64,000 nt of DNA, taken from assembly GCF_011440375.1 (NCBI RefSeq), contig NZ_JAAOIR010000002.1, positions 310,001 to 374,000 on the forward strand, written 5' to 3'. The notes under the pieces are model-generated. The model was not told where the DNA came from. It made no database searches and worked only from the letters and a program-made list of their open reading frames with translations. This document shows positions 1-15,396 of the stretch, piece after piece (the stretch's first letter is position 1; each line of letters begins with the position of its first letter). Position numbers and translations under genes: made by a program. The DNA is from Halorubellus sp. JP-L1 (GTDB taxonomy: Archaea > Halobacteriota > Halobacteria > Halobacteriales > Natrialbaceae).

Positions 1-1
1 A

Positions 2-175: not shown

Positions 176-207
176 CTACCCTCTCCTCCGATTCGTTCTC
201 GCGCCGC

Positions 208-303: not shown

Positions 304-365
304 GTGTCGTTCGCGTCGAGCCGAGCGGTCGTCGGTAGTCGGTGCGGGCAGCGCGATGCCGGGCG

Positions 366-737
366 TCAGAAGGGCGCGGCGGGGCCGTCGGTCGAACCGT
401 CGGGGCCGTCGGTCGAACCGCCGGACGTGACGAGGTCGCCGTCGTACGCGGTGAGGCCGCCGGCCATGCTCTCGACGGGTGCGTCGACGCCCGCGTAGGA
501 CGCGATGAGGCGCGCGGCCTGGACGCTGGACTTCCCGTGCGGGCAGACGGTGACGTACCGGTCGGCGTCCGGGAGCGCGTCGACTTCGCCCGTGAGTTCC
601 GGGAGCGGGACGTTCAGCGAGTCGGGGACGTGGCCGCGAGCGTAGCTCGAGGGGTTCCGGATGTCGACGATGCAGACGTCGACGTCGTCGTCGTCGCGGA
701 GCGTCTCGACGCGGTCGGGGTCGACTTCGCCGTCCAT
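366..737 (-). CDS. Single-domain rhodanese-like sulfurtransferase
   Basis: A 123-residue protein spanning one rhodanese domain. The entry motif 'VDIRNPSSYARGHVPDSLNVP' region lies near residues 24-44, and the active-site loop CPHGKS carries the predicted persulfide cysteine at residue 65. Single-domain rhodaneses move sulfane sulfur in the cytoplasm, for example toward tRNA thiolation or cofactor synthesis; the substrate here is unknown. The C-terminal 18 residues are a Gly/Ser/Thr/Asp repeat (GSTDGPDGSTDGP) matching a short DNA duplication. The start at 737 is chosen because the domain begins directly after it; an in-frame extension upstream overlaps the HTH-10 gene and lacks domain sequence. 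It lies 28 bases after the HTH-10 gene on the same strand, so co-transcription is plausible. Confidence 0.88.
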   Translation of the reverse strand: MDGEVDPDRVETLRDDDDVDVCIVDIRNPSSYARGHVPDSLNVPLPELTGEVDALPDADRYVTVCPHGKSSVQAARLIASYAGVDAPVESMAGGLTAYDGDLVTSGGSTDGPDGSTDGPAAPF

Positions 738-765
738 CGTTGCCCGGCCTACGCGGTGGGTCGTG

Positions 766-1518
766 TTAAGGAGCGTGTTCTGGTGCGTCGACGTCCTCGA
801 CGCCGAGACAGCCCTGCGTGAACTCGGTCGCGAGCCACGTCTCCGCGCGCTGGAGGCGGTACTGGAGCGTCGAGCGCGGGACACCGGTCTCCTCGGCGAC
901 GTCCGCGAGCGTGCTCTCGCGCGGGGTCTCGTAGTAGCCGGCGTCGACGGCTGCCTCGAGCGCGGCGCGTTGCTCGTAGGGGAGTTCCGCGTCGGTACTG
1001 GGGTCGTCGCCCCAGTGGGTCGGGTCGCTGAGTTGGCTGAGGGAGATCCCGATGCTGTCCGGGAAGTTCTCGCGCATGGCGTCGAACAGTTCTCCGGCAC
1101 CGTCGCCGTTGCGCGTGAGGATGCGCCAGACGTACTCGTCGCCGCGGCGGCGCGTCTCGAAGAAGAGGCCGGGGCCGAGGTGGTCGGTGGCGTGGTAGGG
1201 GAGCGCCGGGCAGGCGTCGATGCCCTGGCGGTACGTGTAGACGGTGGCGGTCGTCGGGTCGTGCTCCAGGAGTTGGTGTTCGCGGTAGGAGTCGCAGGCT
1301 CCCTCCGGGCACTCGTTGCAGCGGTTCGCGTCGAGCACGAGCGCCTCGAGCGCGTCGATCGCGGGCTCGGGACCGCTGAATCGGTCGATGCGCCACATGT
1401 CCTCGCCGACGACGTTGCACGCCACGGAGCGCGCGATCGCCTCCGGGTGGTCGATGAAGACGTCGGCGATGGGGTCGACGCCCCGCTCGTACTCGAGCGT
1501 GAAGACGTATTCTCGCAT
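766..1518 (-). CDS. HTH-10 (Bat-type) transcriptional regulator
   Basis: A 250-residue haloarchaeal regulator. Residues 1-180 form a ligand or redox sensing region with a cysteine cluster CNECPEGAC (C67, C70, C75). Residues about 185-245 form the HTH-10 helix-turn-helix, recognisable by the 'LTDVAEETGVPRSTLQYRL'-like pattern (here TLADVAEETGVPRSTLQ). Members resemble the DNA-binding end of bacterio-opsin activator (Bat) and act as cytoplasmic one-component regulators. It is divergent from TFB across a 166-base spacer containing a palindrome (TTTGGC-ATAC-GCCAAA) and a TTGGCATA half-site near its own start. Self-regulation and control of the TFB gene are therefore possible but inferred. The target genes are unknown. 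Confidence 0.87.
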   Translation of the reverse strand: MREYVFTLEYERGVDPIADVFIDHPEAIARSVACNVVGEDMWRIDRFSGPEPAIDALEALVLDANRCNECPEGACDSYREHQLLEHDPTTATVYTYRQGIDACPALPYHATDHLGPGLFFETRRRGDEYVWRILTRNGDGAGELFDAMRENFPDSIGISLSQLSDPTHWGDDPSTDAELPYEQRAALEAAVDAGYYETPRESTLADVAEETGVPRSTLQYRLQRAETWLATEFTQGCLGVEDVDAPEHAP

Positions 1519-1632
1519 ACCTCGAGTTCGGTCTATGCCAACCTAACTGTTTCGCCGAAGGTGCTCGAGACGGGACAATCGCTGCATGCGGTCCGTCTGT
1601 CTCCGGTCTTCTACCACCGGCTCCGGGGCGAC

Positions 1633-1648
1633 TTTGGCATACGCCAAA
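1633..1648. promoter_or_regulatory. Palindromic candidate operator upstream of TFB
   Basis: TTTGGC-ATAC-GCCAAA is a perfect 6-base inverted repeat with a 4-base centre, ending 36 bases before the TFB start codon. It overlaps the place expected for the BRE/TATA region. An octamer from it, TTGGCATA, recurs on the opposite strand at 1534-1541, just before the divergent HTH-10 gene. Symmetry and position suggest a regulator binding site; no protein is shown to bind it. Confidence 0.45.
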
Positions 1649-1684
1649 CGAAGCTATTGGGGGCTGTCCGTTCACTAGGATGGT

Positions 1685-2734
1685 ATGACGACTCAACGCT
1701 TCGAGCGCCGAACTCGCTCCGGCGACGACGGGTCCTCGCGAGCCACGTCGCGAACGCGAACCCGGGACGAGGACGAGGATGCAACTGCTCCCGCAGAGCG
1801 CACTCGCGAGCACCCCGGGGACGTGACGACCTGCCCCGAGTGCAGCGGGCACGTCGCGCACGACGAGGAGCGCGGCGAGACCGTCTGCGAGGACTGCGGG
1901 CTCGTCGTCACGGAGGACGAGGTCGACCGCGGCCCCGAGTGGCGCGCGTTCGACGCCGCCGAGAGCGACGAGAAGTCCCGCGTCGGCGCGCCCACGACGA
2001 AGATGATGCACGACGACGGGCTGTCGACGACCATCGGCTGGCAGAACAAGGACGCCTACGGCAACAGTCTGTCCTCGCAGAAGCGCCAGCAGATGCAGCG
2101 CCTGCGCACGTGGGACGAGCGCTTCCGCACGCGCGACAGCCAGGAGCGCAACCTCAAGCAGGCCCTCGGCGAGATCGACCGCATGGCGAGCGCGCTCGGC
2201 CTCCCGAAGAACGTTCGCGAGACCGCGAGCGTCGTCTACCGGCGCGCGCTCGAGGACGGCCTGCTCCCCGGACGGAGCATCGAGGGCGTCGCGACCGCCT
2301 CTCTGCACGCCGCCGCGCGCCAGGCCGGGTCGCCCCGGACCGTCGACGAAGTGGAGCGCGTCTCCCGCGTCGACGAACAGGAGTTCACGCGCACGTACCG
2401 CTACCTCGTCAAGGAGCTCAGCTTGGAGGTCCAGCCCGCCGATCCCGCGAGCTATCTGCCGCGGTTCGCCAGCGATCTGGACGCCTCGGACGCCGTCGAA
2501 CGCCGCGCTCGCGAACTCGTCGAGACCGCCAAGCGCGAGGCCGTTCACTCCGGGAAGTCCCCGGTCGGCATCGCCGCCGCCGCGATATACGCCGCCGGCC
2601 TGCTGGAGGACGCCGAACTCACGCAGCGCGAAGTCGGCGAGGCCGCGGACGTCAGCGAGGTCACGATCCGCGACCGCTACCGCGAACTCCTCCGCACCGC
2701 ACAGAACGCCGGCGGCCAGCAGGCCGCGGACTGA
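1685..2734 (+). CDS. tfb: Transcription initiation factor IIB (TFB)
   Basis: A 349-residue TFB. An acidic, Arg/Thr-rich lead of about 45 residues precedes a zinc ribbon with ligands C50, C53, C68 and C71 (CPEC ... CEDCG). The B-reader/linker follows, then two cyclin-like repeats at about residues 150-340. The second ends in the 'TIRDRYRELL' helix-turn-helix that contacts the BRE. TFB bridges TBP on the TATA box and RNA polymerase during initiation. Haloarchaea usually encode several TFBs with distinct promoter sets; which paralogue this is cannot be told from the window. ATG at 1685 is used because it leaves the whole ribbon intact; the non-conserved lead makes a later start possible. It is divergent from an HTH-10 regulator and preceded by a palindrome. 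Confidence 0.95.
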   Translation: MTTQRFERRTRSGDDGSSRATSRTRTRDEDEDATAPAERTREHPGDVTTCPECSGHVAHDEERGETVCEDCGLVVTEDEVDRGPEWRAFDAAESDEKSRVGAPTTKMMHDDGLSTTIGWQNKDAYGNSLSSQKRQQMQRLRTWDERFRTRDSQERNLKQALGEIDRMASALGLPKNVRETASVVYRRALEDGLLPGRSIEGVATASLHAAARQAGSPRTVDEVERVSRVDEQEFTRTYRYLVKELSLEVQPADPASYLPRFASDLDASDAVERRARELVETAKREAVHSGKSPVGIAAAAIYAAGLLEDAELTQREVGEAADVSEVTIRDRYRELLRTAQNAGGQQAAD

Positions 2735-2820
2735 CCGCCCGATTCCGACCCGAACCGGTTCGACGCGACGGTCGTCCATCGACCACGGACTGAAATTCAT
2801 CGACCACGTACTCGATACCA

Positions 2821-3156
2821 ATGAGTCAAACACGGAAACCCGTCCACCTCGCGAACGAGAGCGAACTCGACGCGTTCCTCGCCGAGCACGACCGCGTCCT
2901 CCTCGAGGCGTACACCGACGGCTGCGGAATCTGCGCGTCCATGGAGCCGGTGCTCGGGAACGTCGCTCGCGCGACGGACGTCGCGGTCGCGCTCGTCAAC
3001 CCGCGCGACGACCCGCCGCTCGTCGAGCGCCTCCAGGTGACGAGCGTCCCGCTCCTCGTCTACTACGAGGACGGCGAGGAGGTCCGGCGGCTCGCCGACG
3101 GCTTCCAGGGGGCCGACGCGGTCCTCGAGTTCGTCGACGAACCCGTCGAGGCGTGA
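2821..3156 (+). CDS. Thioredoxin-like protein with CGIC redox motif
   Basis: A 111-residue single thioredoxin-fold protein. The redox motif is C35-G-I-C38, in 'YTDGCGICASMEP', where a classical thioredoxin has WCGPC. The cis-proline signature ('TSVPLLVYYEDG') follows near residue 78. It is cytoplasmic, with no signal peptide or membrane segment. The family exchanges dithiol and disulfide with partner proteins; the altered motif implies a redox potential or partner different from general thioredoxin, but this is inference. It lies 87 bases after TFB on the same strand; an AT-rich stretch before the start suggests its own promoter. Confidence 0.88.
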   Translation: MSQTRKPVHLANESELDAFLAEHDRVLLEAYTDGCGICASMEPVLGNVARATDVAVALVNPRDDPPLVERLQVTSVPLLVYYEDGEEVRRLADGFQGADAVLEFVDEPVEA

Positions 3157-3284
3157 CGCCCGGCGCGCTCCTCGGTCACGTCGCGTCTCGACCGGCCGGT
3201 CGCCGCTTGCCGACCGCCTAAACCCCTGCGGCGTCTATTACCTGCTATGACATCCCACTCGATGCGCCACGGAGGTCGGTCGCG

Positions 3285-3953
3285 ATGAGTGCGCGGAACC
3301 CCCACAGCGGCGACGATCCGCACGGCGACCAGCCCGTCTCCGAGGCCGGCGCGGACCTCGCCGACGCGTCGGCGGCCGTCGTCTGCGTGCACGGCCGCGG
3401 CGCGACGGCGCAATCGATGCTCCAGATCACGGGCCAGTTCGGGTTCGACGACGTCGCATACCTCGCGCCGCAAGCCGCCGGCCGGACGTGGTACCCGAAC
3501 CCGTTCACCGCCCCCACCGAATCGAACCAGCCCGGTCTCCGCTCGGGGCTCGCAACGGTCGGTGCGCTCGTCGACCGGGCCGCGGACGCCGTCGGCCGCG
3601 AGCATGTCGTCGTCCTCGGGTTCTCCCAGGGCGCGTGCCTCGGGAGCGAGTACGTCGCTCGGAACCCCGCGCGGTACGGTGGCCTCGTCGTCTTCAGCGG
3701 CGGTCTCATCGGCCCCGAGGTGTCGCCCGACCAGTACGACGGCGACCTCGACGGGACGCCCGCGTTCCTCGGGTGCGACGACAACGACCCGCACATCGCG
3801 CTGGAGCGCGTTCACGAGAGCACCGCGGTGCTCGAGCACCTCGGCGCGGACGTCGACGAACGCATCTACCAGGGCATCGGGCACGGCGTCGTCGAGGACG
3901 AACTCGACGCCGCCATCTCGATCGTCGACGACGCGCGCGACGACGCAGCGTGA
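3285..3953 (+). CDS. Phospholipase/carboxylesterase family alpha/beta hydrolase
   Basis: A 222-residue alpha/beta hydrolase of the carboxylesterase/phospholipase type. The nucleophile elbow GFSQGA places the catalytic Ser at 114. An Asp follows in 'CDDNDPHI' and the His in 'GIGHGV' near residue 200, in the order expected for the triad. 'VCVHGRGA' near residue 35 is the oxyanion-hole segment. The protein is soluble and hydrolyses ester substrates that cannot be named from sequence. The chosen ATG at 3285 overlaps no other gene; an upstream ATG at 3247 is out of frame. The stop codon belongs to a 26-base tandem duplication continuing to 4002. Confidence 0.88.
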   Translation: MSARNPHSGDDPHGDQPVSEAGADLADASAAVVCVHGRGATAQSMLQITGQFGFDDVAYLAPQAAGRTWYPNPFTAPTESNQPGLRSGLATVGALVDRAADAVGREHVVVLGFSQGACLGSEYVARNPARYGGLVVFSGGLIGPEVSPDQYDGDLDGTPAFLGCDDNDPHIALERVHESTAVLEHLGADVDERIYQGIGHGVVEDELDAAISIVDDARDDAA

Positions 3954-4002
3954 CCGTCGTCCGCGGAATCGAGCTCTGACCGTCGTTCGCGAAGCCGAGG
4001 AC
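3951..4002. repeat. 26-base tandem duplication that includes the hydrolase stop codon
   Basis: Units 3951-3976 and 3977-4002 both begin TGACCGTCGT and keep similar following bases (CCGCG/TCGCG, then AATCGAG/AAGCCGAG). The first TGA is the stop codon of the esterase gene, so the duplication arose across the gene end. It fills most of the spacer before cobO. Confidence 0.75.
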
Positions 4003-4031
4003 TGAAGCGACCCGCGGCCGTCGGTCGACCC

Positions 4032-4730
4032 ATGACAGAGGACGACCCAGCGACGGGCGACGACGCATCCGGCGACCGCGACGACGGGACCGCCGGCGCG
4101 CCAGAACCCACGTCCATCGAACCGGCCGCGCCGGAGGCGTTCGGGCGGACGCAGATCTGGTGGGGCGACGGCAAGGGGAAGACGACCGCGGCGCTCGGCA
4201 TGGGCTTTCGCGCGGCCGGCCACGGCTACCGCGTGCATCTCCTCCAGTTCATGAAGGGCGGCGCGGCGAGCGTCGAGGACGTCCGCGGCGAGTACAACGC
4301 CATCCGCGCCGTCCCCGGGTTCACGTACGAGCACTCCGGGCACTACGGCTGGCACGCGATGAACGACGGGACCGACGACGTCGACCACGAGGCTCGCGCG
4401 CAGGGCGGGATGGAGCGCGCCCGCGACCTCGTCGACGCCGCCAGGAACGCCGACCTCGACTCGCCCCTGGAACTGGACGCGCCCGCGGACGACGGCGTCC
4501 ACATGCTCGTCCTCGACGAGCTCTGTTACGCCGCGAACCGCGACCTCGTCGCGCCCGACGCGGTCGTCGACCTCGTCGACTCGAAGCCCGACGGGCTCGA
4601 ACTCGTCCTCACCGGCGGTCACGAGGAGCCGACGTACGTCACCGGGCGCGCCGACCTCGTCACGAACGTCCGCAAGGAGAGACATCCGTTCGACGACGGC
4701 GTCCGCGCCCGCAAGGGCACCGAGTTCTGA
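4032..4730 (+). CDS. cobO: Cob(I)yrinic acid a,c-diamide adenosyltransferase (CobO/BtuR type)
   Basis: A 232-residue ATP:corrinoid adenosyltransferase. After a 40-residue acidic lead comes 'WWGDGKGKTTAALGMGFRA', whose P-loop (G45-T52) binds ATP in the reversed orientation typical of the family. 'LLQFMKGG' and the 'LVLDELCYA' Walker-B-like strand follow, then 'LTGGHEEP' near the C-terminus. The enzyme transfers the 5'-deoxyadenosyl group of ATP to reduced cobalt, a cytoplasmic step in making or salvaging adenosylcobalamin. No other corrinoid synthesis gene is adjacent, though a BtuF-like binding protein lies 34 kb away. Immediately downstream is the left boundary of the lower-GC island. Confidence 0.95.
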   Translation: MTEDDPATGDDASGDRDDGTAGAPEPTSIEPAAPEAFGRTQIWWGDGKGKTTAALGMGFRAAGHGYRVHLLQFMKGGAASVEDVRGEYNAIRAVPGFTYEHSGHYGWHAMNDGTDDVDHEARAQGGMERARDLVDAARNADLDSPLELDAPADDGVHMLVLDELCYAANRDLVAPDAVVDLVDSKPDGLELVLTGGHEEPTYVTGRADLVTNVRKERHPFDDGVRARKGTEF

Positions 4731-4775
4731 CCGATCGCTCGCGTCGACGACCGCGCCGGCGACCGTCGATGGCCA

Positions 4776-4836
4776 CTACTGCGGGCCGAGGTAGCCCCAT
4801 GCCTGCAGGCGGTCGCCGTCGCCGTCGATCCAGCGC
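4776..4836 (-). pseudogene. 3'-end fragment of a PurD-like ATP-grasp gene (left repeat of the island)
   Basis: On the minus strand this stretch reads RWIDGDGDRLQAWGYLGPQ followed by a TAG stop. It closely matches the last codons of the intact ATP-grasp protein encoded at 9569-10888 (RWSDGEGDRLQAWGYLGP). At the DNA level 4786-4836 matches 9585-9635 in 46 of 51 positions; three of the five changes are synonymous. No ATP-grasp sequence is recognisable upstream of it on the minus strand, so only the gene tail is here. This could be the far attachment site left by an element that integrated at the gene's 3' end, or a remnant of a second gene copy. Confidence 0.75.
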
Positions 4837-5141
4837 ACGGTCAGAACGTCCGAACTCTGCTTCGAGCGTACGACGAGGGAACCGAGAGCGGAACTCCCGC
4901 GTAGAATACCCTCGCACGTGGGCGCGGCATTCAGCAAGGAACTCACCAGTGACGACGTGCGAAGCCACGATGTTTCGGGTTTGATGGCCTGATTCGTAGT
5001 GGTCGGGTTTGCGGTGTTCGACGTCGGTTCGCGGATAGGCCATGACCGTTCTTTCCGACGCGGTGTCAGGCATTCCCATTCCGAGCGTGACGGAGACGAC
5101 TACCAGAAGACGTTTGCGCCGACGTGAAGTTAGTCGCGTAG
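4837..5141. other. Gene-poor stretch at the left end of the island
   Basis: No gene is supported here. The minus strand is open in two frames across about 4840-5079. One frame reads from an ATG at 5079 without known domains, and the other runs in frame into the ATP-grasp tail. Base composition is lower in G+C than in cobO and the strands show no clear coding bias. A small orphan protein cannot be excluded. The last 30 bases before 5142 contain GAAGTTAGTCG, which may serve the promoter of the next gene. Confidence 0.4.
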
Positions 5142-5582
5142 ATGCCTACACGTCGCGATTTTCTCACCGGGACTCTCGGAGCCGGGGCTGGAATCCTCTC
5201 CTGGACCATCGGATCGGCGGTCAGCAGAGAACTACGTGCCACGGATCTCCGGTACGTTCTGGTTCGGAACGAGACCGAGACTCAGCAGTCGGTCACTCTG
5301 CTGTTCGAGGCTGCCGGGGAGCCACTCTTCTGGGAAACGTACGAACTCGACGGCGGTGAGGTCGTCGAGCGAAACAGCATCGCAGAAAGTGGAGCGGTTC
5401 GATTGTTCGTCCGATGGAATGACGTGACTCCCTCCCAGCGCATCCAGACCGGGACGAGGGCGGTCGCGGTCGTTCTCACTGCAGTCGGTGACGGCGATAT
5501 CGTCGTTCGAGACGTTCCCTTCTCGTCGCTCTCGCCCTCGGAGCGACAGGAGACACGCACGCAAACCAGTTCCAGCGACTGA
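5142..5582 (+). CDS. Tat-signal exported protein of unknown function
   Basis: A 146-residue protein beginning with a twin-arginine signal, MPTRRDFLTGTLGAGAGIL, so export in folded form is predicted; no lipobox Cys is present. The mature part is short and beta-rich, with 'LRYVLVRNETETQQSVTLLFE' and 'LFVRWNDV' segments suggesting a small beta-sandwich. The C-terminus is Ser/Thr/Gln-rich. No family is recognised. It sits at the left end of the lower-GC island, convergent with the large surface lipoprotein gene (42-base spacer). Codon use is less GC-rich than that of the flanking core genes, consistent with transfer. Confidence 0.65.
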   Translation: MPTRRDFLTGTLGAGAGILSWTIGSAVSRELRATDLRYVLVRNETETQQSVTLLFEAAGEPLFWETYELDGGEVVERNSIAESGAVRLFVRWNDVTPSQRIQTGTRAVAVVLTAVGDGDIVVRDVPFSSLSPSERQETRTQTSSSD

Positions 5583-5624
5583 GCGACAATTCGTCCGAAC
5601 TGAAACCGCCTTCAGTTACTCAAT

Positions 5625-7868
5625 TCACCGGACCGGGGTGGTTTTGTGGCCCACTACGGTACGGTTGGTGGCGTTTGATACGTTCGCGCTCGTCCACGGT
5701 CGATTGAGCGCACTCACCAGCAGATCGGTGAGGAACGGTTCGGCCTGACCGCCGGGAGCGAGGTAGCCCCGGCACGTGTGGCTGCTATCGTTCGCGATGT
5801 CGCAATCGCGCTCGCCGTGGATGGGGCCGAGAACGAGATGCATGAGTTCGTGGGTAACGACGATGGGACGTGATTCGCTCGCTCGAACCACGGCGACGTT
5901 CCCGCCGCTGGCACCGAACGCGACCAGCCCGGACGACCCGACGTCGAACTCCGAGACGACGACCATGTTGACGACCCCGTCGCCCGGTGACTCTCCGTAG
6001 CGCTGCTCGTAGAGCGCGTCGACGTCGTCGGTACTAAAGTCCGCACCGAACGTCCCATCGAGCTGTGTGGTTTCGTGCGTACGAACGTGGAGGTGAACGC
6101 CCGACAAATCCCCCGGGTTATCTACCGGGAATCCCGCCCACGTCGACCGCATATTCGCTACTTGCTGTTCGCTCAATCGCTGGTCGGCATCGAGGGTGCT
6201 TGTGTAGAGTACGTCGAGTACGACGTCCTTCTCGGAGGGATGGAGTTCGGGGAGCACCACCCGCGGATGGTGTCCGACGACCCGCGTGCTCTCGACGAAG
6301 TCCGAGAGACCGTCTCCATCGACGTCTGCACTCATCGGGTTCGTTCTGTGGCCGCGCTCGCAGGCGGCCGCGACGCGATCTTCGCCGTCTTGGACTCCAG
6401 CGGTCGAGTTCGACGTCGGATCGGACGAGGGACGTTCCAGCGCACAGTCGTCGACGGGCGCTGCGCGATCCGCCTTCTCGGAGAGCTCAGCCGCTAGCGG
6501 GTCCGTTTGTGAGGCGTTCCAGGCGCCACTGGCGGCGGCGATCGAACGTGCGTCCGCTGTCGTGGACGCGACCGCAATATGGATGACCGCCCCGTCACGG
6601 ACGAGTACGTAGGATAGCTCCGGTGTGTGCTCGGTTCCGGGAACCACGAAGACGCCGTCATCGCGCGTCGCATCCCGGTTCTCTAGCGCTGCACGCCAAG
6701 CCGCCGCGAACTCCTTGGCCTCTCGTTCGTTCGCCCAGCGCGTCGACCACGACGCCGCGATACCGTCCGGGCGCTGGAACGTTCGCATCGAACCGTTCCA
6801 CCAGCCCGTGCTTGCGGCGGCTGCTCGGTGAAACGAGACCCCGTTCGTCCGGAGCGCGTACCTGATGGTGAGTTCGCCGACGCGGTTCTCGCTCTTCGTC
6901 GTCCAGTCGGCCGGAGCCGGTGCGGTGACGGCCGGTCCCGGAAGGTCCAAGGTCCCGTTCGGGTGCATCACCTCGGCGGTCGTGTCCGGCGGCTGACGGA
7001 CGTGTGCGTTCCGCAAATCCTCGGGCACGCCCTGCAGGTATCGTGCGCCGTAGTACCGCGTCTTATCGAGGAACCCGTGCGTCCAGTGTCCGCGTTCGGT
7101 AGTCGTGTTCCGGAGCGCGAGCGGGTTCGCACCGCCGGCGTCGTGTGTCTGCCAGTACCGGTACGCGGTGAGGGTGGCGTCACCTTCCGTCAGCATCAGG
7201 CCTGCGAGGTCCGCGTCGGTCGTCTCGGTGAGTCGCTGACGATCGTTGAGGCCGTGTTGTTCCTGTAGCGTATGCGCGAACTCGTGGACGAGGAGGATTT
7301 CGAAGGAGTCGTCGGCGATGCGCTCGTACGCGCTCTCGTTCGCCACGTTGACGGCGGTGGCTCGCGCCATCCCGGCTGCAGCGAAGCCCTTGAGCGGGAC
7401 CGGCTCCGAGGAGTACAGTTGGAGGGCCTTCGTCTGGGTCTCGTCCATGCCCGCGGCGTCGTCGGGGTAGTCGAAGGGGTCGCCGACCTGCATCCGTTCG
7501 TTGGTCTCCGGATCGACGATGTCGATTCCGTGCACGGACACGTTCACCTGTTCGCGTGCGGTGAGACCACGGAGTGCCTCGACACGTCGATAGATCGCGT
7601 CCAGGGACGGGTTGTGTTCGAAGTTCGTCCCGACAGCTCGTGGGTCAGGTGGGTTCGTCACCGCGGGCGACTCCGTGAGCGTCGGCACCTGCGTCCGAGT
7701 CGCGGGTGTTCCGACGGTCGTCGGTTCCGCGGTCGTGTGCTCGGCGGTTCGGTTCGCTGTCTCGGTGTTCGTCGGCGCGATGGTCGTGTCGGCCCCTGGG
7801 CCGCCGCTACAGCCGGCGAGGAGGACGAGGCACCCGAGCAGGGCGAGAGCAGTTTGGAGACGGGGCAC
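5625..7868 (-). CDS. Hvo_1808-like surface lipoprotein with two HExxH motifs
   Basis: A 747-residue exported protein. GTG at 7868 is preferred because the lipoprotein signal starts there (VPRLQTALALL ... LLAGC, lipid Cys 20); an ATG at 7934 would add 22 residues. A Thr-rich stalk spans about residues 25-75. Residues about 80-460 resemble the haloarchaeal Hvo_1808 surface-protein family and contain HEFAH at 195-199. A calcium-loop-like segment DVDGDGLSDFVE follows near residue 530. The last 200 residues form another domain with HELMH at 673-677 and nearby Cys residues (RDCD, HTCRGY). The two HExxH motifs suggest two metal-dependent peptidase-like domains on the cell surface, but activity and substrate are unproven. 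It lies in the island, convergent with the Tat protein gene. Confidence 0.75.
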   Translation of the reverse strand: MPRLQTALALLGCLVLLAGCSGGPGADTTIAPTNTETANRTAEHTTAEPTTVGTPATRTQVPTLTESPAVTNPPDPRAVGTNFEHNPSLDAIYRRVEALRGLTAREQVNVSVHGIDIVDPETNERMQVGDPFDYPDDAAGMDETQTKALQLYSSEPVPLKGFAAAGMARATAVNVANESAYERIADDSFEILLVHEFAHTLQEQHGLNDRQRLTETTDADLAGLMLTEGDATLTAYRYWQTHDAGGANPLALRNTTTERGHWTHGFLDKTRYYGARYLQGVPEDLRNAHVRQPPDTTAEVMHPNGTLDLPGPAVTAPAPADWTTKSENRVGELTIRYALRTNGVSFHRAAAASTGWWNGSMRTFQRPDGIAASWSTRWANEREAKEFAAAWRAALENRDATRDDGVFVVPGTEHTPELSYVLVRDGAVIHIAVASTTADARSIAAASGAWNASQTDPLAAELSEKADRAAPVDDCALERPSSDPTSNSTAGVQDGEDRVAAACERGHRTNPMSADVDGDGLSDFVESTRVVGHHPRVVLPELHPSEKDVVLDVLYTSTLDADQRLSEQQVANMRSTWAGFPVDNPGDLSGVHLHVRTHETTQLDGTFGADFSTDDVDALYEQRYGESPGDGVVNMVVVSEFDVGSSGLVAFGASGGNVAVVRASESRPIVVTHELMHLVLGPIHGERDCDIANDSSHTCRGYLAPGGQAEPFLTDLLVSALNRPWTSANVSNATNRTVVGHKTTPVR

Positions 7869-7949
7869 GCCACATGATACCACGAACGAAACAGAAAACC
7901 CACCGAATGGTTCAACCAGTCTTTCACTAACCATGCTGACAGTGACACG

Positions 7950-8204
7950 ATGGTGCTCATCCTGCTTGCTGAATCAAATATGGACTCATCCGTCCGATAC
8001 GAGACGAGTGGAGACGGAGCAAGTGCCTACCCATACGTCTACGGGCCACAGACGTTGGATGCAGTCATCGACTCCTTCCCATTCGTACGGAATGAATCTG
8101 GCTATCGTCTGTCCGACGAACTGCTGCGGCATTACCCTCTTGGACGCTATCAGTGTTATAGTCGCACGTACGATGTCACGGCGGCTGCATTCGCTCCGGA
8201 CTGA
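7950..8204 (+). pseudogene. 5'-truncated DUF952 family gene
   Basis: The 84 residues from the first in-frame ATG match only the C-terminal half of DUF952 proteins. They show the 'VLILLAE' strand, a 'SSVRYE' segment and 'AYPYVYGPQTLDAVIDSFPF', the family's conserved end. DUF952 proteins are about 110 residues and begin with a 'YHI'-type strand that is absent here. The reading frame stays open upstream to about 7890 without restoring that N-terminus. The gene was probably cut when its surroundings rearranged. It might still be translated from 7950, but the fold would be incomplete. Function of the family is not known to me with certainty. Confidence 0.6.
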
Positions 8205-8280
8205 CGTCGTCGGCCTACGTTGGTAGAGACCGCACTCCATACAGAAGAGATATATGTCCGATTTCGAGTACCATCTGTAG

Positions 8281-8808
8281 ATGAACCGTCGTCAGGCGCT
8301 CAAGAGTTTGGCAGTAGTCGGTAGTGTGTCTGTAGCTGGTTGTTCTTCGGTCCTTGATTCCGGTGGGTCGGGAACTGTCCTCGGACCGATCGAAGTCATC
8401 AACTCGTCCTTTATCTCGAACCGGGTCCGTATCATGGTGGAGCGCGATGAAGGCACCAGGTCGGAGAGCGATGACGAAAGTCTCCTCGACCGGAAGCTCT
8501 CGCTGCCTGCGATCGACGCTGAAACCGGTACGCCGGGGCTGCGTATTGCACCGTCGTGGTCAGAAACGCAGGCTCACTACACGATACGTGCTGTCCATTA
8601 CGACGGGTCCGACGACAGAGAAACCGAGGTTTGGGAGTATACGTTCACACGAGAAGACTACAAGACGTATTATGCGGACCGGAACGAAGATCCGGGGTGT
8701 ATCGGGGCTCTCGTCAAGATCGGGAGCCTCTCCACTGCTGGGAACGGTGCAATTGGGATCGGCCCGACCTATATGGAAGACCCTTGTGGAACCTCGGGAT
8801 CCCAATAA
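8281..8808 (+). CDS. Tat lipoprotein of unknown function
   Basis: A 175-residue protein with an N-terminal signal of the haloarchaeal Tat-lipoprotein type: MNRRQALKSLAVVGSVSVAGC. The predicted lipid-carrying Cys is residue 21, so the protein should be anchored on the outer face of the membrane. The mature region has beta-strand character ('HYTIRAVHYDG', 'EVWEYTFTREDYKTYY') and two late Cys residues in 'DPGCIG' and 'DPCGTSGS', which could pair. No family is recognised. TATATG at 8250-8255 is a plausible TATA element about 30 bases upstream, fitting a leaderless transcript. Low G+C for this genome and island location suggest acquisition. Confidence 0.68.
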   Translation: MNRRQALKSLAVVGSVSVAGCSSVLDSGGSGTVLGPIEVINSSFISNRVRIMVERDEGTRSESDDESLLDRKLSLPAIDAETGTPGLRIAPSWSETQAHYTIRAVHYDGSDDRETEVWEYTFTREDYKTYYADRNEDPGCIGALVKIGSLSTAGNGAIGIGPTYMEDPCGTSGSQ

Positions 8809-8871
8809 ACATCGCTCTCAGAGCGGGGCTCATCTTACCGGATCAGTAGATACAGGCTGGTCGGTTCTCGG

Positions 8872-9537
8872 ATGTGGCGCGGATGCGAGTCAGTGGGCGT
8901 CGTCGATGGACGGGTGAAGCAGGAACGCCACCGCTATCACACCATCACGACTCGCTGTCCGGAACACGGAAAGACGAGCATCCACCGGGAACTCGGTGAC
9001 AAGGAAGAACGATACACCGAGTGGGTACTCCATCGTCTCTCCCGTGCTGTCGTGGAGTTCGCAGAGCAGTTCTCGAACCCGGTTATCGTGTTCGAGGATA
9101 GGGAGGGTATCCGCGACGAGATCGAGTACGGGAAGTATACGAATCGGCGGTTGCACAAATCGCCGTTTTACAAGTTCGAGACGTTCGTCTCGTACAAGGC
9201 GACGTGACGGGCAATTTTCACGGACACGGTGGTTGCCTACTACAACTCGCAGACGTGTCCGTTCTGTGGCGAGCGGGGAGATCGGCAGGGACGGTGGTTC
9301 CGGTGTACGAATGGGGAGTGTGCGGTTCAGCAAGACCATACTGACCGGAATGCGTCGGTGAACATCGCGTAGCGCGAGAAGGCGAAAACCGACGGTAATG
9401 ATACGAATTACCGGGCTCACAAAACCCAGCCGCAGGTTCGGTTAGTGCGTCTGTCCGGGTCAAGGCGCGTAAGCCGCCCAACCTCATCCCGCTCGCTCGC
9501 CGAGCAGGGAGCGCTAGCGCACGGCCGAGGGAACTAG
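8872..9537 (+). pseudogene. Decayed IS200/IS605-type TnpB (RNA-guided nuclease family) remnant
   Basis: In a single frame, interrupted by TGA at 9205-9207 and TAG at 9370-9372, the sequence reads as the C-terminal part of a haloarchaeal TnpB. Present are 'RCPEHG', 'VIVFEDREGIRDEI' with the second RuvC acidic position, the zinc-finger cysteines CPFC ... CTNGEC, and 'QDHTDRNASVNIA', the third RuvC segment. The first RuvC Asp and the N-terminal domain are missing. TnpB proteins are RNA-guided nucleases that favour retention of IS200/IS605 elements; this copy cannot be functional. No TnpA gene was found nearby. The frame ends at 9537, just before a hairpin. Confidence 0.82.
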
Positions 9538-9540
9538 AAA

Positions 9541-9566
9541 AGCCTCGGGCCACCGCGCCCGAGGCT
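9541..9566. terminator. Bidirectional hairpin terminator
   Basis: AGCCTCGGG (9541-9549) pairs perfectly with CCCGAGGCT (9558-9566) around an 8-base loop. The minus strand continues into a CTTTTC run after the hairpin, suiting termination of the ATP-grasp gene that stops at 9569. The plus strand continues GTTT, suiting the tnpB remnant. Confidence 0.6.
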
Positions 9567-9568
9567 GT

Positions 9569-10888
9569 TTACTTGCCACCTGGTCCGAGGTAGCCCCACG
9601 CTTGCAGGCGGTCGCCCTCGCCGTCGCTCCACCGCTCGCCGATGTCGTCGCGATAGTACATGTTTGGCATCACGATATCGTCGATCCGGTCGTACGCCTG
9701 CTCGCGCGCCGCGTGCATCGTCTCTCCCTTCCCCGTCACGACGATCGGCATCCCGTTGTCCCCGGCCGCCCGCCACTGGCCATCCACCTTCTTCGCGTCT
9801 TCTAGGTGAATTCCGTCTCGGCTTTCCGTCTCGAACACCACAGCTGCGTTTCGAGAGTTCTCATCGTACGTCTTCTCGTCATCGAACGGGAACGGCGGCA
9901 GGACGACCCGAACGCCGATCTGGTACCCGTTGTGGACCGCTAGTTCGGGGGTGTTGCCGTGCGCGAGATCGTAGAAGAACTCGCCAGTAGACGACTCGAT
10001 GGACTCTTCCTGTAACGCGATCGTCGGATACCCGAACCGCGGCGTGAACTCCAACGGATAGATCCCGGCCTCGTTCACGATGCAGTTGATGTCGATGCTC
10101 CCGACGTAGCCCTCGTCGGCGAGCCAGTCCTCGAGTTTCCCGAAGGTCTCTTTGAACAATTTGTTCTGGCCGGCCCAGAACATCGACGTTCCCATCTCGC
10201 CGGTCTGGGGACCGATGTTTCCTGGGAATAATTTCTTGTGCTCGAAATTGAAATTGACATGGTCGATGAACTCGTTCCCGTCGAAGAACCCGCAGATGGC
10301 AATCTCCACACCTTCGACTTTCCGCTGGAGCTGGAACCCCTTCATCCGGTGCCCCCACGCCTTCTTGTAGGCACGGAGCACGTCTACGACGTCGCTGCCA
10401 TCATCCTCGTTCCCGACGTAGAGCAGTCGTTTAACGTTCTGGACTTCTCCAAGTGGCTTGATGACGTACGGAGCCGGGTTCTCCTGCACGTGCTGGATGC
10501 CGGCGTCGAAGTCGTGGAAGATGTGGTGTTCGACGGTGTTGACACCGTGCTCTTCGAGGATCTCCATCGCGTAGCCGCGATCTTCTTCGAGGTGATCGGT
10601 GTTCGGCGTCCCACCGACGACAGCTTCGCCTTGCTCCCGGAGTTCCTGAGCGAGTTTGCCTGTCCCGATGTCCGAGCCCACCCAAATGTCGTCGAAGATG
10701 ATTACGTCGGCCCACTCGACCTCCGCGCGCCAATCATCCGTTTTGGGCACGAACCCGTCCCCGATCTCCTTGTCGCTCTCGGCTTCGATGTAGTATCTGA
10801 CGTCGTGGCCTTCTTTGTGAACTTGCCACGCGAGGTCGGTGATCAGTGCGGCGTCGGCGGATACGAACAGGAAGTTCCTCGAAGGCAT
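9569..10888 (-). CDS. PurD-like ATP-grasp enzyme
   Basis: A 439-residue ATP-grasp protein. The N-terminus 'FLFVSADAALITDLAWQVHKEGHDVRYY' region is a Rossmann-like pre-ATP-grasp domain, although the usual GxGGREHA of true PurD is missing. Central elements include 'YVIKPLGE', with an ATP-contacting Lys, and 'GFFDGNEF'. 'GNIGPQTGEMGT' corresponds to the PurD NTGGMG loop, and 'PLEFTPRFGYP' corresponds to the metal-binding ENxR region with changes. ATP-grasp enzymes join a carboxylate to an amine via an acyl phosphate. This protein resembles phosphoribosylamine-glycine ligase but lacks its signature ends, so another substrate is likely. Its G+C is lower than that of genes to the right. Its 3' end is duplicated at 4786-4836 and the lower-GC island begins at its tail. 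Confidence 0.8.
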   Translation of the reverse strand: MPSRNFLFVSADAALITDLAWQVHKEGHDVRYYIEAESDKEIGDGFVPKTDDWRAEVEWADVIIFDDIWVGSDIGTGKLAQELREQGEAVVGGTPNTDHLEEDRGYAMEILEEHGVNTVEHHIFHDFDAGIQHVQENPAPYVIKPLGEVQNVKRLLYVGNEDDGSDVVDVLRAYKKAWGHRMKGFQLQRKVEGVEIAICGFFDGNEFIDHVNFNFEHKKLFPGNIGPQTGEMGTSMFWAGQNKLFKETFGKLEDWLADEGYVGSIDINCIVNEAGIYPLEFTPRFGYPTIALQEESIESSTGEFFYDLAHGNTPELAVHNGYQIGVRVVLPPFPFDDEKTYDENSRNAAVVFETESRDGIHLEDAKKVDGQWRAAGDNGMPIVVTGKGETMHAAREQAYDRIDDIVMPNMYYRDDIGERWSDGEGDRLQAWGYLGPGGK

Positions 10889-10960: not shown

Positions 10961-11491
10961 TTACTCGTCCTCGGACTCGATCGGGATCTCGATGGGTTCG
11001 TCGGTCGCGTCCTCGGCCGTCGCGTCGCCGAACCCGGTCTCGGTCGATGGGCCGACGCCGGCCGCGTCCGCGGCGTCCGCGAACAGCGTCTCCGACGCGC
11101 CCTCGGCGAGGTCGTCGAGCGCGAGCGCGAGGTTCCGACGGTTCGACTTCCAGAACGCGTCCACGACCGGCCCGACGTACGGGATCGTGCCGGTGGCGAC
11201 GTCGATCGTGACGTTCGCGAGCATCGACACGAGCGTCGTGTACGAGACGCCGAGACGCGCCGACTCCAGGACGATGTACAGCGACAGCCCGCCAGCGATC
11301 ACGTCGCCGACGCCAGGCACCACGCCGAGCAGTGGGTCCAGGCCGACCTCGAAGTCGGTCCCGGGGACCCGCACCGCCTCGTCGAGCACGCGCGCGACCG
11401 TGCGCATCCGCGCCACGGCCGCCTCGTCGACGCCGTCGGGGATCGGTCCGTCGTACGGGTCCGCGAACGGGTCCATCTCGGTTCCAGCCAT
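10961..11491 (-). CDS. DUF4112 membrane-associated protein
   Basis: A 176-residue protein matching DUF4112: 'LLGVVPGVGDVIAGGLSLYIVLESARLGV', then 'GTIPYVGPVVDAFWKSNRRNL', the family's two conserved hydrophobic stretches at about residues 55-90 and 105-130. These probably form membrane hairpins with the charged ends in the cytoplasm. The last 45 residues are acidic and variable. The biochemical role is unknown. It is transcribed away from the ATP-grasp gene, with a 72-base spacer, and the next minus-strand gene upstream ends about 100 bases away. The family call is confident; no function can be added. Confidence 0.85.
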   Translation of the reverse strand: MAGTEMDPFADPYDGPIPDGVDEAAVARMRTVARVLDEAVRVPGTDFEVGLDPLLGVVPGVGDVIAGGLSLYIVLESARLGVSYTTLVSMLANVTIDVATGTIPYVGPVVDAFWKSNRRNLALALDDLAEGASETLFADAADAAGVGPSTETGFGDATAEDATDEPIEIPIESEDE

Positions 11492-11593
11492 ACCAGTACC
11501 TACCGAGTCAGGACTGAAGAATGTCGGGCCGAATCGCGCTGGTATCGACTCGAGTCCACCCAGCTCGCCCCTGGGGGTGCGACTCGTCTTCGC

Positions 11594-12055
11594 TCAGAAG
11601 AGGGCGTCCGGGAACCGCAGGAGGACCGCGTCGACGAGCAACAGCACGCCGACGAGCGTCGCCGCGCGGAGGAACGGCGTCGCGCGCTTCGCGGGCGTCC
11701 GCACCTTCAACTCCTCAGTGCCGGCGAGGACGCGACTCGCTCCCACCTCGACCAGTCCGGTCAACGCCAGCCAGAGGACGACCATCGCCAGCACGAGGTA
11801 CCCGCTCGTCGACGACAGCAGCGTCCGCTCGTAGCCCGCGAGCGAGATCATGTACCCGCCAGAGAGCAAGAGCAGAACGGACGCCACCCGGGAGCCGACC
11901 TGGAGTCGTTCCGCGAACCGTTCCAGTGGCGTCGCGTTCAGCGACCCCTCTCGGGCGAGTGGCAGGATACCGAACGCGAAGAACACGACCGCCCCCACCC
12001 ACGTCGCCGCGACGACCAGATGAACCGCCCTGACGCCGACTTCGACCAGAGACAT
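11594..12055 (-). CDS. CopD-like four-helix membrane protein
   Basis: A 153-residue integral membrane protein with four predicted helices at about residues 7-30, 52-72, 80-104 and 128-148. The pattern resembles the copper-resistance D (CopD)/DUF superfamily: a histidine early in helix 1 ('AVHLVVAATWVGAVVFF'), long helices and short loops. That helix resembles quinone- or heme-linked small membrane proteins, but the exact activity is not known. ATG at 12055 follows 25 bases of spacer from the next upstream gene on the same strand, suggesting they share a transcript. No copper genes lie nearby, so a role in copper handling is only a family-based guess. Confidence 0.7.
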   Translation of the reverse strand: MSLVEVGVRAVHLVVAATWVGAVVFFAFGILPLAREGSLNATPLERFAERLQVGSRVASVLLLLSGGYMISLAGYERTLLSSTSGYLVLAMVVLWLALTGLVEVGASRVLAGTEELKVRTPAKRATPFLRAATLVGVLLLVDAVLLRFPDALF

Positions 12056-12080
12056 GGAGGTATCGTCCGCCCGCGCCCCG

Positions 12081-13052
12081 TTAATCCTTCTCCTCTACGG
12101 TCGCCGCACAGGACTCGCACAGCAACTCGATCGTCGAGGACGCGGACCCGATGACGGTCTCGAGGTCGTCGACCGCGTGGTACGCCTCGCAGCGCTCGCA
12201 GCGCGCGGTCGGCGCGGCCTCGTCCGCGAGCATCGAGTCGACGGTGACCTCGTCCGTCGGCGAGTCGAACGCCGCCTCCGGGTCCAGGCCGCTCGCGGGC
12301 TGAGCGGGCGCCGCGGGCGGTCCGTCCGTGAGCGCCGGCGGGCCGTCGTCGAAGATCGGCGACTCGCTCACGTCGACGGTACTGACTGTCGGGTCACTGC
12401 CGTCGACGGTACTGACTCCAGGGTCAGTAGCGTCGTTCGTGGACAGCCGGGCGGCCTCGCGGTCGGTGGCGTCGTCGTCGCCGGCAGCCTCCGCGACGGA
12501 CGCGAGTGCGTCGCTGAAGAACTCGCCCGCGAGGTCGTCGGGGAGTCCCGTATTCCCGTACAGCGCGGTGACGAGACGGTCGCGGAGTGCGTCCGGCGCC
12601 AGCCCTTCGCGCTCGCCGACGACGTGTAGCGCGTCCGCCTCGCGAGCGTCCGGGTCCGGCATTCCCTCGGGGTTCCGGACGTACCGGTCGACGACGGCCG
12701 CGAGTCGGCTCGCGACCGTCGCGTCCGCACTCCAGCGCGTCGGGAACGCCGCGTCGACGTTCGCGCGACGCTCCTCGGACAGGTCGGCGACGACCGCGTC
12801 CGCGGACGCGTCTCCGTCCGCGAGTTCGGACGTGGCCGCGTCCGTCACCGACCGGTCGACGCGGTCGAGCGCGGTCTCGTCAGGAACGCGGAGACGACCG
12901 GCGGCGAGGTCACAGAGCACGCTCAGGCTCTCCTGCATCGACGAGGCCTCGTAGCCCCGGCACTCCGCGTACACGTCGTCGATGCGCTCGGCGAGCGCGG
13001 CGGGAATCCGTACGTCGACGAACTCCTCCCGTCGGTCGTCTCGCTGTGCCAT
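12081..13052 (-). CDS. Predicted ribbon-helix-helix DNA-binding protein with C-terminal zinc ribbon
   Basis: A 323-residue acidic protein of unknown function. The first 55 residues ('EEFVDVRIPAALAERIDDV' then 'EASSMQESLSVLCDLAAGRL') look like a ribbon-helix-helix DNA-binding unit: a beta strand followed by two helices. The middle is a helical, Ala/Asp-rich region with variable repeats, including SVDVS/STVDGSDP duplications at about 220-245 that match a DNA repeat near 12370-12425. The C-terminus has two Cys pairs, CERC and CESC, forming a zinc ribbon-like knuckle around residues 288-315. Together these suggest a regulator or DNA-associated adaptor. A TATA-like box 29 bases before the ATG indicates a leaderless transcript. 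Confidence 0.72.
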   Translation of the reverse strand: MAQRDDRREEFVDVRIPAALAERIDDVYAECRGYEASSMQESLSVLCDLAAGRLRVPDETALDRVDRSVTDAATSELADGDASADAVVADLSEERRANVDAAFPTRWSADATVASRLAAVVDRYVRNPEGMPDPDAREADALHVVGEREGLAPDALRDRLVTALYGNTGLPDDLAGEFFSDALASVAEAAGDDDATDREAARLSTNDATDPGVSTVDGSDPTVSTVDVSESPIFDDGPPALTDGPPAAPAQPASGLDPEAAFDSPTDEVTVDSMLADEAAPTARCERCEAYHAVDDLETVIGSASSTIELLCESCAATVEEKD

Positions 13053-13076
13053 CGGCCATACTATCGAACTCCACCA

Positions 13077-13086
13077 TGATAAATTT
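13077..13086 (-). promoter_or_regulatory. TATA box of the ribbon-helix-helix gene
   Basis: On the minus strand AAATTTATCA is centred about 29 bases before the ATG at 13052, inside an unusually AT-rich stretch (13070-13115). The spacing is that of a leaderless haloarchaeal transcript. Confidence 0.5.
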
Positions 13087-13230
13087 CACTAATTTGTCTT
13101 CGCGTTTTAATTTCTGAGGCGGGGAACCTGTGACATACGGGCGTATGAGACGATCACACGAGGGGCGTCGCGGGTGCTGACGTACCGGCCGGGATCGGCC
13201 CGCTCGGGGCGGTGTCGGGCGCCGACGCGG

Positions 13231-13794
13231 TCACTGCAGGTAGCGTTCTTCCAGCACCGGGAGGCGCTTCCTGACGAGCACGTACACGACGGATACCGCC
13301 ACTCCGGCGAGCGCGACGCGCCGAATCCAGCCGTCGAACACGACCAGTCCGGGGAGTGCGAACGCCACGCCTACAACGAGGTCCTCGGGCGCGCCGTCGT
13401 ACCGCACGAGCCGCCGCGGTCGCGCCCACCGTCCCTGCGTGTGCAGGAACACGCCGCGGTCGGACTCCGCGAGCCACGGCCGCGCCTCGAGGCCGCCACC
13501 GAGCGCGTCGCTCGCCGCGTGCACCGCCGCCGACACCAGGAACGCCGCCGCCGCGACCGTCGCCGGACCGACCGCGACCGCCGCGACCGCGACCGCGACG
13601 ACCGCGAGCACCGCGTAGTACTCCGGGAAGTGCAGCGTCTTCCGGTGCTCGGCGACGAGGTCCAGATCCGGAAAGATACCGCCGGCGAGCGCCGCCACCG
13701 CCGCGACCGTCGCGTACTCCCCAGCGAGGACGGCGTACGCGCTCGCCAGCGCCAACCCGACGAACGCGTGCGTCGTCGCCATCATCACCGACAC
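13231..13794 (-). CDS. YdjM-type membrane-bound metal-dependent hydrolase
   Basis: A 187-residue membrane protein of the YdjM/DUF457 family (named as LexA-binding or metal-dependent hydrolase in databases). Conserved polar positions sit next to helices: 'TTHAFVGLAL' at the N-terminus (His), 'GGIFPDLDLVAEH' near residue 45 (Asp pair and His), and 'AAVHAASDALGGG' near residue 90. Four or five hydrophobic helices span the chain. Some members act on phospholipid-like substrates, but the reaction here is unknown. An alternative start at the internal MATTHA would shorten it by four residues. A second family member lies at 54061-55119. It is not obviously in an operon. Confidence 0.78.
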   Translation of the reverse strand: MSVMMATTHAFVGLALASAYAVLAGEYATVAAVAALAGGIFPDLDLVAEHRKTLHFPEYYAVLAVVAVAVAAVAVGPATVAAAAFLVSAAVHAASDALGGGLEARPWLAESDRGVFLHTQGRWARPRRLVRYDGAPEDLVVGVAFALPGLVVFDGWIRRVALAGVAVSVVYVLVRKRLPVLEERYLQ

Positions 13795-14099
13795 GTAGCC
13801 ATCTCACGGTGAAAACCCCGTCGACGCCCACCTCCGTTCACCGCCACACAGTCCCGTGCTCTCCGGCCCGCCCCGCGCTGATCCGCCGAGGGTTCAAGTG
13901 CGATAGCGCGGCCACCGTCACCTGACCGACGCGCGGGGACGGCCGAGGCGGGAGTCCGGGCCACCGTCCTCGAACCGCCAGCGGTCGGCCGCGAACCGTC
14001 CGCGACCTCGAACTGCCAGCGGTCCCGACCCGCTCACGGCCCGGCTGCTCGCCACGAGCCACCCGCAGACCCTTCTCCCTCGAGTCCGTGCGTCCACGC

Positions 14100-14342
14100 A
14101 TGTCGCTCACGCTCTACGCACTCGACGGCTGCCCGTGGTGCGAACTGGTCGCCGACCGCCTCGACGAACTCGACCTCGACTACGACAGCGTCTGGGTGGA
14201 CGCGCTCCACTCCGAGCGCGACGAGGTCAAGCGCGTCTCCGGCCAGCGCGCCGTGCCCGTCCTCGTCGACGACGAGTACGGCGTCACGATGAACGAGTCC
14301 GAGAACATCGTCGCGTACCTCGACACCACGTACGCCGAGTGA
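14100..14342 (+). CDS. Glutaredoxin-like protein (CPWC)
   Basis: An 80-residue glutaredoxin-fold protein. The redox motif is C11-P-W-C14 at the end of strand 1 ('LYALDGCPWCELV'). The cis-Pro segment 'RAVPVLVDDEYG' follows near residue 53 and the glutathione-type 'MNESENIVAYLD' helix near residue 67. Haloarchaea use gamma-glutamylcysteine rather than glutathione, so the natural thiol partner is uncertain. The start used here gives the domain directly; an ATG four codons earlier (14088) is possible. The protein is soluble. It ends 21 bases before the convergent R2-like oxidase gene. Confidence 0.9.
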   Translation: MSLTLYALDGCPWCELVADRLDELDLDYDSVWVDALHSERDEVKRVSGQRAVPVLVDDEYGVTMNESENIVAYLDTTYAE

Positions 14343-14363
14343 CGACGCCTCGCTAGCGGTTCC

Positions 14364-15254
14364 TCACTCGTCGAGTCGAGTGAGGGCCTCCACGTCCGGG
14401 ACGTCCGCGGTCGCGTCGACGATCTGGTTCATGCGCTCGGCGTGCTTCTCGGCGGCGTACGCCGCCAGGTCCGCCGGCGTGACCCCCTCGTCTTCCTCGC
14501 GGCCCGCCGCCGACACCGCGTCCTGGACGAGCATCGCGAGCTCGCCCGTCAGGTCGTGCAGGAGCGACGGGTCGACCGCGTCAGCCGCGACGAGGGCCTT
14601 GAGCTTCCGCATCCCGAACCCGACGTGCCGGCCTTCGTCGCTCCGGATGCGCGAGAACCCCTCGACGAGTCCCGGGAGCTCGGGGAGCCCCGGCGTCGAC
14701 CCGTCGAAGGAGCTCTGGACGCCGTAGTAGCCCGTCTGCGCGAGGATGCCCTCGACGGTGAGGTGGTAGTGACAGTACGCTCGTGCCCGGTTCTCCGGCG
14801 TGTCCTCGGTCAGCAACCGCTCCATCGCCGCTTCGTTGCGTTCGAACAGTTCGTCGTACGCGTCGTTGAACCACGACGCGTCACGCGGGTCCGAACGCGC
14901 CTCCCCGCGTCGATCCTCGGCTGCGTGGATTACGCGCGTCCAGTATCGGTGGAAGAACTCCGCGTGCTTGGCCTCCTCGTAGAGCTGGGTGGTGACGAAC
15001 AGCTGGTCGTCGACGTCGTCGAGGACGACCGCGAGCGGCGACAGGTCCTCGGTGACGGCCTCCTCGCCGGCACCGAAGAGCGCGAGCGTCCGCCGGAGCG
15101 AGTCGAACGCGTCCGCGTCGAGGTCGGCGACGCGCTCGACGTCCGCGGAGAGGTCGATCTCGGCGGGATCCCAGTGGCGTTCGACGGCGTTGCGGTAGTA
15201 CCGGAACGAACTCGCGTCCTCGTCGATGCCGGTGCGGTCCGCGGCGTCGGTCAT
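14364..15254 (-). CDS. R2-like ligand-binding oxidase / ribonucleotide reductase R2-like di-metal protein
   Basis: A 296-residue helical protein with the metal-ligand pattern of the ferritin-like R2 superfamily: E64/E65, E94 with H97 (LYEEAKHAEF), E168 (TVEGILAQTGYYG), and E207 with H210 (SDEGRH). The tyrosines after E168 and the 'GILAQTGYYGVQ' context fit the R2-like ligand-binding oxidases, which hold a Mn/Fe or Fe/Fe site and bind a long-chain lipid, rather than R2 of ribonucleotide reductase (about 340 residues with a C-terminal R1-binding tail). No R1 gene is adjacent. The natural substrate is unknown. ATG at 15254 is chosen because the larger open frame upstream is antisense to the MutS-like gene. 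Confidence 0.85.
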   Translation of the reverse strand: MTDAADRTGIDEDASSFRYYRNAVERHWDPAEIDLSADVERVADLDADAFDSLRRTLALFGAGEEAVTEDLSPLAVVLDDVDDQLFVTTQLYEEAKHAEFFHRYWTRVIHAAEDRRGEARSDPRDASWFNDAYDELFERNEAAMERLLTEDTPENRARAYCHYHLTVEGILAQTGYYGVQSSFDGSTPGLPELPGLVEGFSRIRSDEGRHVGFGMRKLKALVAADAVDPSLLHDLTGELAMLVQDAVSAAGREEDEGVTPADLAAYAAEKHAERMNQIVDATADVPDVEALTRLDE

Positions 15255-15396
15255 GCGCCGGCCTATGGTATCTCCGGCAATCAATCTCCCGGACGACTCG
15301 ACGACGGCCACCGCGGCCCCTGGAGGTTCCAGGCCCGCTGCGGCGCTGCGGGTCGTTTGTGGGGCTTTGATTACGGACCGGTCGTAGGAATGGGGT

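Follow-up and report, generated by a model that had tools for sequence, protein, structure and literature searches.

Probable in situ displacement of a resident ATP-grasp gene by a foreign copy in the haloarchaeon Halorubellus sp. JP-L1

In Halorubellus sp. JP-L1, the 3' end of a gene for a PurD-like ATP-grasp protein occurs twice, and the two copies are separated by DNA of lower GC content. Does such a duplicated gene tail mark the attachment site of an integrative element, as an earlier note on this DNA had proposed, or was it left by another kind of event? The locus lies within the window, i.e., the whole stretch of 64,000 nucleotides that was analysed, and its features are collected in Table 1. 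The direct repeat described in the earlier note was recovered at 4783–4839 and 9582–9638, where the copies are identical at 50 of 57 nt (88%), including 46 of the 51 positions in the shorter span first reported; on inspection, three of the five differences in that span are indeed synonymous. When the whole genome was searched with the ATP-grasp gene as query, only the gene itself and the orphan tail were returned (E 7.4e-13 for the tail). The lower GC content was also confirmed, at 55–68% in the block vs about 70% around it. The boundaries given for the block, 4786–9635, were wrong, as the low-GC foreign DNA continues past 9635 through codon 9 of the ATP-grasp gene, to ~10864.

The ancestral state of the locus is read from Halorubellus salinus GX3 (G001/L074), the sole sister genome compared. 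It is collinear with the window on both sides of the block (1–4835 and 11056–16000), the alignment being unbroken over 1–4835 at 81% identity and ranging from 74 to 81% from 11056 onward. The single ATP-grasp gene of H. salinus and cobO face each other tail to tail; their ends are ~40 bp apart, and nothing intervenes. This is the empty site that had been predicted, with the ATP-grasp gene adjoining cobO and one tail only; the same arrangement is expected of gene displacement too. The spacing between the DUF4112 gene and the ATP-grasp gene is ~1.4 kb longer in H. salinus than in the window (L074:8540-9960), and this extra DNA probably holds a minus-strand gene.

The relationships of the intact ATP-grasp gene change abruptly close to its start. 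Among 80 relatives, H. salinus matches the first 24 nt at every position, and the next best reaches 19/24. Over codons 9–28, H. salinus falls to 73rd of the 80, with 36/60 identical positions vs 54/60 in the best relatives. The body of the gene shares 71% aa and 74% nt identity with H. salinus, compared with up to 94% aa (Haloferacaceae archaeon XH8) and about 85–90% nt identity with Haloferacaceae. Taken in 60-nt windows along the gene body, identity amounts to 60–82% with H. salinus and mostly to 80–98% with Haloferacaceae. The GC3 of the intact gene is 79.8, vs 91–94 in the resident genes (cobO and its neighbours) and 93.1 in the H. salinus ATP-grasp gene. In a protein tree, the ATP-grasp protein of the window was placed among those of Haloferacaceae and far from H. 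salinus, with weak local support. The resident-like head of 24 nt, together with the foreign match from codon 9, indicates that the gene is a mosaic, composed of the resident promoter region and eight codons, with a foreign remainder. The opposite possibility, that the H. salinus gene is the replaced one, was rejected, as the shared head and tail are of the Halorubellus type in both genomes and the deviant GC3 is found in the body of the window's gene.

The earlier note suggested a related host's gene as the source of the orphan tail. This was not borne out, and the polarity is the reverse: the orphan tail is the resident copy and the intact gene the foreign one. The orphan tail sits where the tail of the H. 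salinus gene lies, and both end in YLGPQ-stop, an exact ending which, among the 80 relatives, is found in H. salinus only. The intact gene ends in YLGPGGK. That the low-GC foreign block takes in the ATP-grasp gene from codon 9 likewise points to the intact gene as the foreign one. With a resident head, a foreign body, and a resident tail, ~6.03 kb of foreign DNA (4836–10864) would have replaced the part of the resident gene that lies between codon 8 and ~18 codons before its stop.

The two edges of the foreign DNA differ in kind. At the right edge, the switch falls within CTTCCTGTTC (10865–10874), at homologous positions of both alleles and in frame at codon 8/9, and this edge is best described as a crossover inside homologous sequence at codons 6–8. 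At the left edge, a broken haloarchaeal plasmid-backbone gene runs directly into the resident tail. The plasmid relatives read ...TGCGCTGGATACT... at this junction, H. salinus reads ...AACGCTGGATCGACGG..., and the window reads ...TGCGCTGGATCGACGG.... The overlap common to them, CGCTGGAT, is 8 bp long when read from plasmid relatives, which are not the true donor, and an overlap of at least 8 bp is expected by chance with a frequency of ~4e-4 (simulated random junctions between the window and plasmid sequence).

Table 1. Features of the ATP-grasp locus, in coordinates of the window
Feature	Coordinates	Strand	Evidence
cobO (ATP:corrinoid adenosyltransferase), resident left flank	4032..4730	+	Pfam CobA_CobO_BtuR 3e-44; collinear with H. 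salinus
Orphan tail, final ~17 codons and stop codon of the resident ATP-grasp gene, itself probably displaced	4783..4835	-	Position and YLGPQ-stop as in H. salinus
Left junction, 8-bp microhomology CGCTGGAT common to the resident tail and the plasmid gene	4828..4835	-	Sequence comparison; simulation
Remnant of a 196-aa plasmid replication-backbone gene, with internal deletion and 3' truncation	4836..5076	-	Matches to plasmid frames
146-aa TAT-signal protein, no family	5142..5582	+	Pfam TAT_signal 0.0017; relatives weak only
Putative exported protein of 769 aa; two motifs of the HExxH type	5625..7934	-	Partial match to Hvo_1808 surface family
DUF952 fragment, C-terminal half only	7950..8204	+	Pfam PF06108 2.6e-4, profile 50-89 of 90
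175-aa TAT/lipobox protein	8281..8808	+	56% relative in one other genome
TnpB (IS200/IS605) remnant, no N-terminus, internal stop	8872..9390	+	NCBIfam guided_TnpB 1.1e-11, TIGR01766 1.3e-11
PurD-like ATP-grasp gene, foreign Haloferacaceae-type body and tail (codon 9 to stop)	9569..10864	-	aa identity, GC3
First 8 codons of the resident gene (MPSRNFLF), in-frame fusion with the foreign body	10865..10888	-	24/24 nt vs H. salinus
DUF4112 gene, resident right flank	10961..11491	-	Pfam DUF4112 3e-30; collinear with H. salinus

Scans of the open reading frames with Pfam and NCBIfam agreed with the earlier description of the enclosed genes as exported or broken. In the plasmid-gene remnant, the N- and C-terminal parts match the two ends of ~206-aa frames (64% and 58%), and the middle is deleted. 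The full 196-aa gene is 79–100% conserved on at least 20 haloarchaeal plasmids; on pNG600 it lies near genes for orc1/cdc6, DNA polymerase B (PolB), and a helicase. The TnpB remnant can be read on past its internal stop. The largest gene encodes the 769-aa protein, which matches NCBIfam NF038145 (the Hvo_1808 surface family) at 2.7e-19, under the family cutoff. Two zincin-like motifs, VHEFAH and THELMH, can be read one in each half of this protein, and there are relatives that have the first half alone (L164); from its sequence, the protein may be a fused double metallopeptidase. Full-length relatives (74–77% aa) were found in only three genomes, all of one genus of the same family, Haloarchaeobius. 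None was found in 170 Haloferacaceae genomes, which makes a single Haloferacaceae donor for the entire block unlikely, and a search for a close plasmid copy of the gene gave none. This gene is Haloarchaeobius-like, and those Haloferacaceae have no full-length relative of it; the passengers are therefore mixed in origin, which is what plasmid accessory DNA would be expected to show.

The history that very likely explains the locus is displacement of the resident gene in situ, with a homologous junction at one edge and a microhomology at the other, either as a single event or as plasmid integration followed by deletion. The DNA that entered the cell is proposed to have held an ATP-grasp gene of the Haloferacaceae type and, behind it, ~4.7 kb of accessory DNA, derived in part from a plasmid. 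This gene would have recombined homologously with the resident ATP-grasp gene near its start, at codons 6–8, and at the other end of the incoming DNA, an illegitimate junction would have formed with the final ~17 codons of the resident gene, via the 8-bp microhomology inside the plasmid gene. In this way, the middle of the resident gene (~1.25 kb) would have been lost and ~4.7 kb of passengers gained; the foreign gene would now be preceded, in an open fused frame, by the first 8 codons of the resident gene and by its promoter, and the resident tail would have been left behind as the orphan copy. We infer essentially one event, either homology-facilitated illegitimate recombination (HFIR) or homologous pairing completed by microhomology-mediated end joining (MMEJ), and a plasmid as the donor molecule with which the passengers came. 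Several steps are also possible, since the passengers derive from several sources (the plasmid gene, the Haloarchaeobius-like surface gene, and TnpB). The exact donor of the block was not found among the sequences searched. MMEJ is used by haloarchaea for break repair (PMC7776575), and in bacteria HFIR, which combines a homologous with an illegitimate junction, gives such a product (PMC6382021). Replacement of single genes across genera is described for haloarchaea, in which the demonstrated route of transfer moves very large fragments (PMC4500145, review). As gene exchange, the event is of a known kind and does not represent a new mobile element; its trace is unusually legible.

The integrative reading assumes that an integrase, the element's own and later lost or supplied by a helper, placed a small element at the 3' end of the ATP-grasp gene, the two tails being attL and attR. 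A direct repeat of a gene 3' end flanking foreign DNA, together with an empty site, is indeed the classical geometry of such an insertion. However, in that case the gene body should belong to the host and only the tail should come from the element, and the opposite was found, with codons 1–8 resident and codon 9 to stop foreign; a foreign body behind a resident head of eight codons is not a product of integration at the tail. In place of an att core, the left edge shows a microhomology with a plasmid gene that is truncated, and the two tails disagree at 7 of 57 sites and encode unlike C-termini. The absence of an integrase noted earlier was confirmed for tyrosine integrases: the nine Phage_integrase matches of the genome all lie elsewhere, and the Pfam scan of the main open reading frames of the block gave none. 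No second copy of the block is present in the genome, where only two stretches of it, of 34–52 bases, are repeated elsewhere, and the ATP-grasp and 769-aa genes have no relatives in the viral contigs searched. The integrative or satellite element is largely refuted by the mosaic, as it would need an independent replacement of the gene body, and we regard it as highly improbable. What stands of the original proposal is the insertion of foreign DNA at the ATP-grasp gene; the site-specific element using the 3' end of that gene does not.

Two other histories lie closer to the displacement proposed here. One is a variant of it, in which the number of steps differs and the outcome is the same: a plasmid carrying the foreign ATP-grasp gene would have integrated by a single, Campbell-type crossover at codons 6–8, giving an intermediate with the foreign gene, the plasmid, and a nearly complete resident gene, and a large microhomology-mediated deletion would then have spared only the resident tail. 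The final map is identical, a plasmid-backbone gene lies at the left edge, the internally deleted and truncated contents fit repeated deletion, and a plasmid copy of the ATP-grasp gene is known in Halarchaeum, on a molecule of 603 kb. It invokes two events where one suffices, however, and the remnant at the left edge is the only plasmid replication gene left, so that we treat this variant as a serious contender that we nevertheless lean against. Stepwise assembly, in which the foreign gene was acquired beside the resident one, the resident gene was eroded until its tail alone was left, and separate later insertions between the two brought in the plasmid fragment, the surface genes, and TnpB, appears unlikely. 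It is consistent with the differing nearest relatives of the block genes, with their GC3 of 56 to 80, and with several genes being broken. Against it, the gene changes abruptly and in frame at codon 8, and the microhomology at the tail is clean, as if these were the two recombination edges of one replacement, and no intermediate of the decay of the resident gene is left.

Whether the ATP-grasp gene is a recurrent site of such events was considered in other haloarchaea. Partial diverged copies lie beside the intact gene at five haloarchaeal loci (L006:9302-9973, L055:2674-2949, L051:9836-9935, L025:11378-11443, and L004:12602-12658), and these may reflect either repeated displacement or duplication and decay at this gene. 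In a crude control with the same criteria, adjacent self-remnants were found for 5 of 72 ATP-grasp genes vs 18 of 424 neighbouring genes; there is no clear enrichment, and recurrence is therefore only a lead. The idea that L004, L006, and L055 share the end of an element at codon ~222 was discarded, as the sequences gave no common terminus. The split ATP-grasp gene of G040 (C1:2274943-2276944; L101, L089) was also set aside, being interrupted at codon ~223 by an ordinary insertion sequence of ~700 bp that has a transposase frame and is flanked by an 8-bp target duplication. The ATP-grasp gene of Haloarchaeobius iranensis (L063:9948-11245) appears frameshifted near codon 17–22. At two other genes (L046:6479-7765 and L078:4953-6191), the last 42–52 nt are copied 106–117 bp downstream with 98–100% identity. 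Tentatively, and with less than even confidence, we suggest that the Halorubellus locus might be a natural archaeal footprint of HFIR, in which a plasmid anchored by one chromosomal homologue displaced a gene and delivered kilobases of accessory genes, and that events of this type may recur at the PurD-like ATP-grasp gene.

The locus has kept both scars of a single-gene replacement, the homologous edge and the microhomology edge, with plasmid DNA attached. Together these features suggest a concrete, testable route by which the replacement of a single gene and the acquisition of an island can be the same event. They also call for caution, as a duplicated gene tail is not always the attachment site of an integrase. 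With archaeal integrative elements at gene 3' ends, the locus shares foreign DNA beside a duplicated gene tail, but it differs from them in having a foreign gene body and a microhomology edge, with no integrase found. It is closer to xenologous displacement in haloarchaea (PMC4500145), where a divergent allele of another family takes the place of the resident gene at its locus and synteny is kept on both sides; here, likewise, a foreign allele occupies a conserved resident locus between collinear flanks, and the remnants of the resident gene are a head of 24 nt and a tail of ~53 nt. Unlike in those cases, the Halorubellus locus holds 4.7 kb of unrelated DNA, which came with the allele or gathered at the locus, and the old gene can still be recognized at both of its ends. 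HFIR (PMC6382021) was described from bacterial natural transformation, and the Halorubellus case is inferred from one archaeal genome alone, but the likeness extends to both junctions: one crossover lies in homologous sequence, at the in-frame switch at codon 8/9, the other junction is a microhomology between sequences that are otherwise unrelated, and its 8 bp, with the donor sequence taken from relatives, lie within the range of 3–10 bp typical of HFIR, and in both systems foreign DNA is added and resident DNA is lost.
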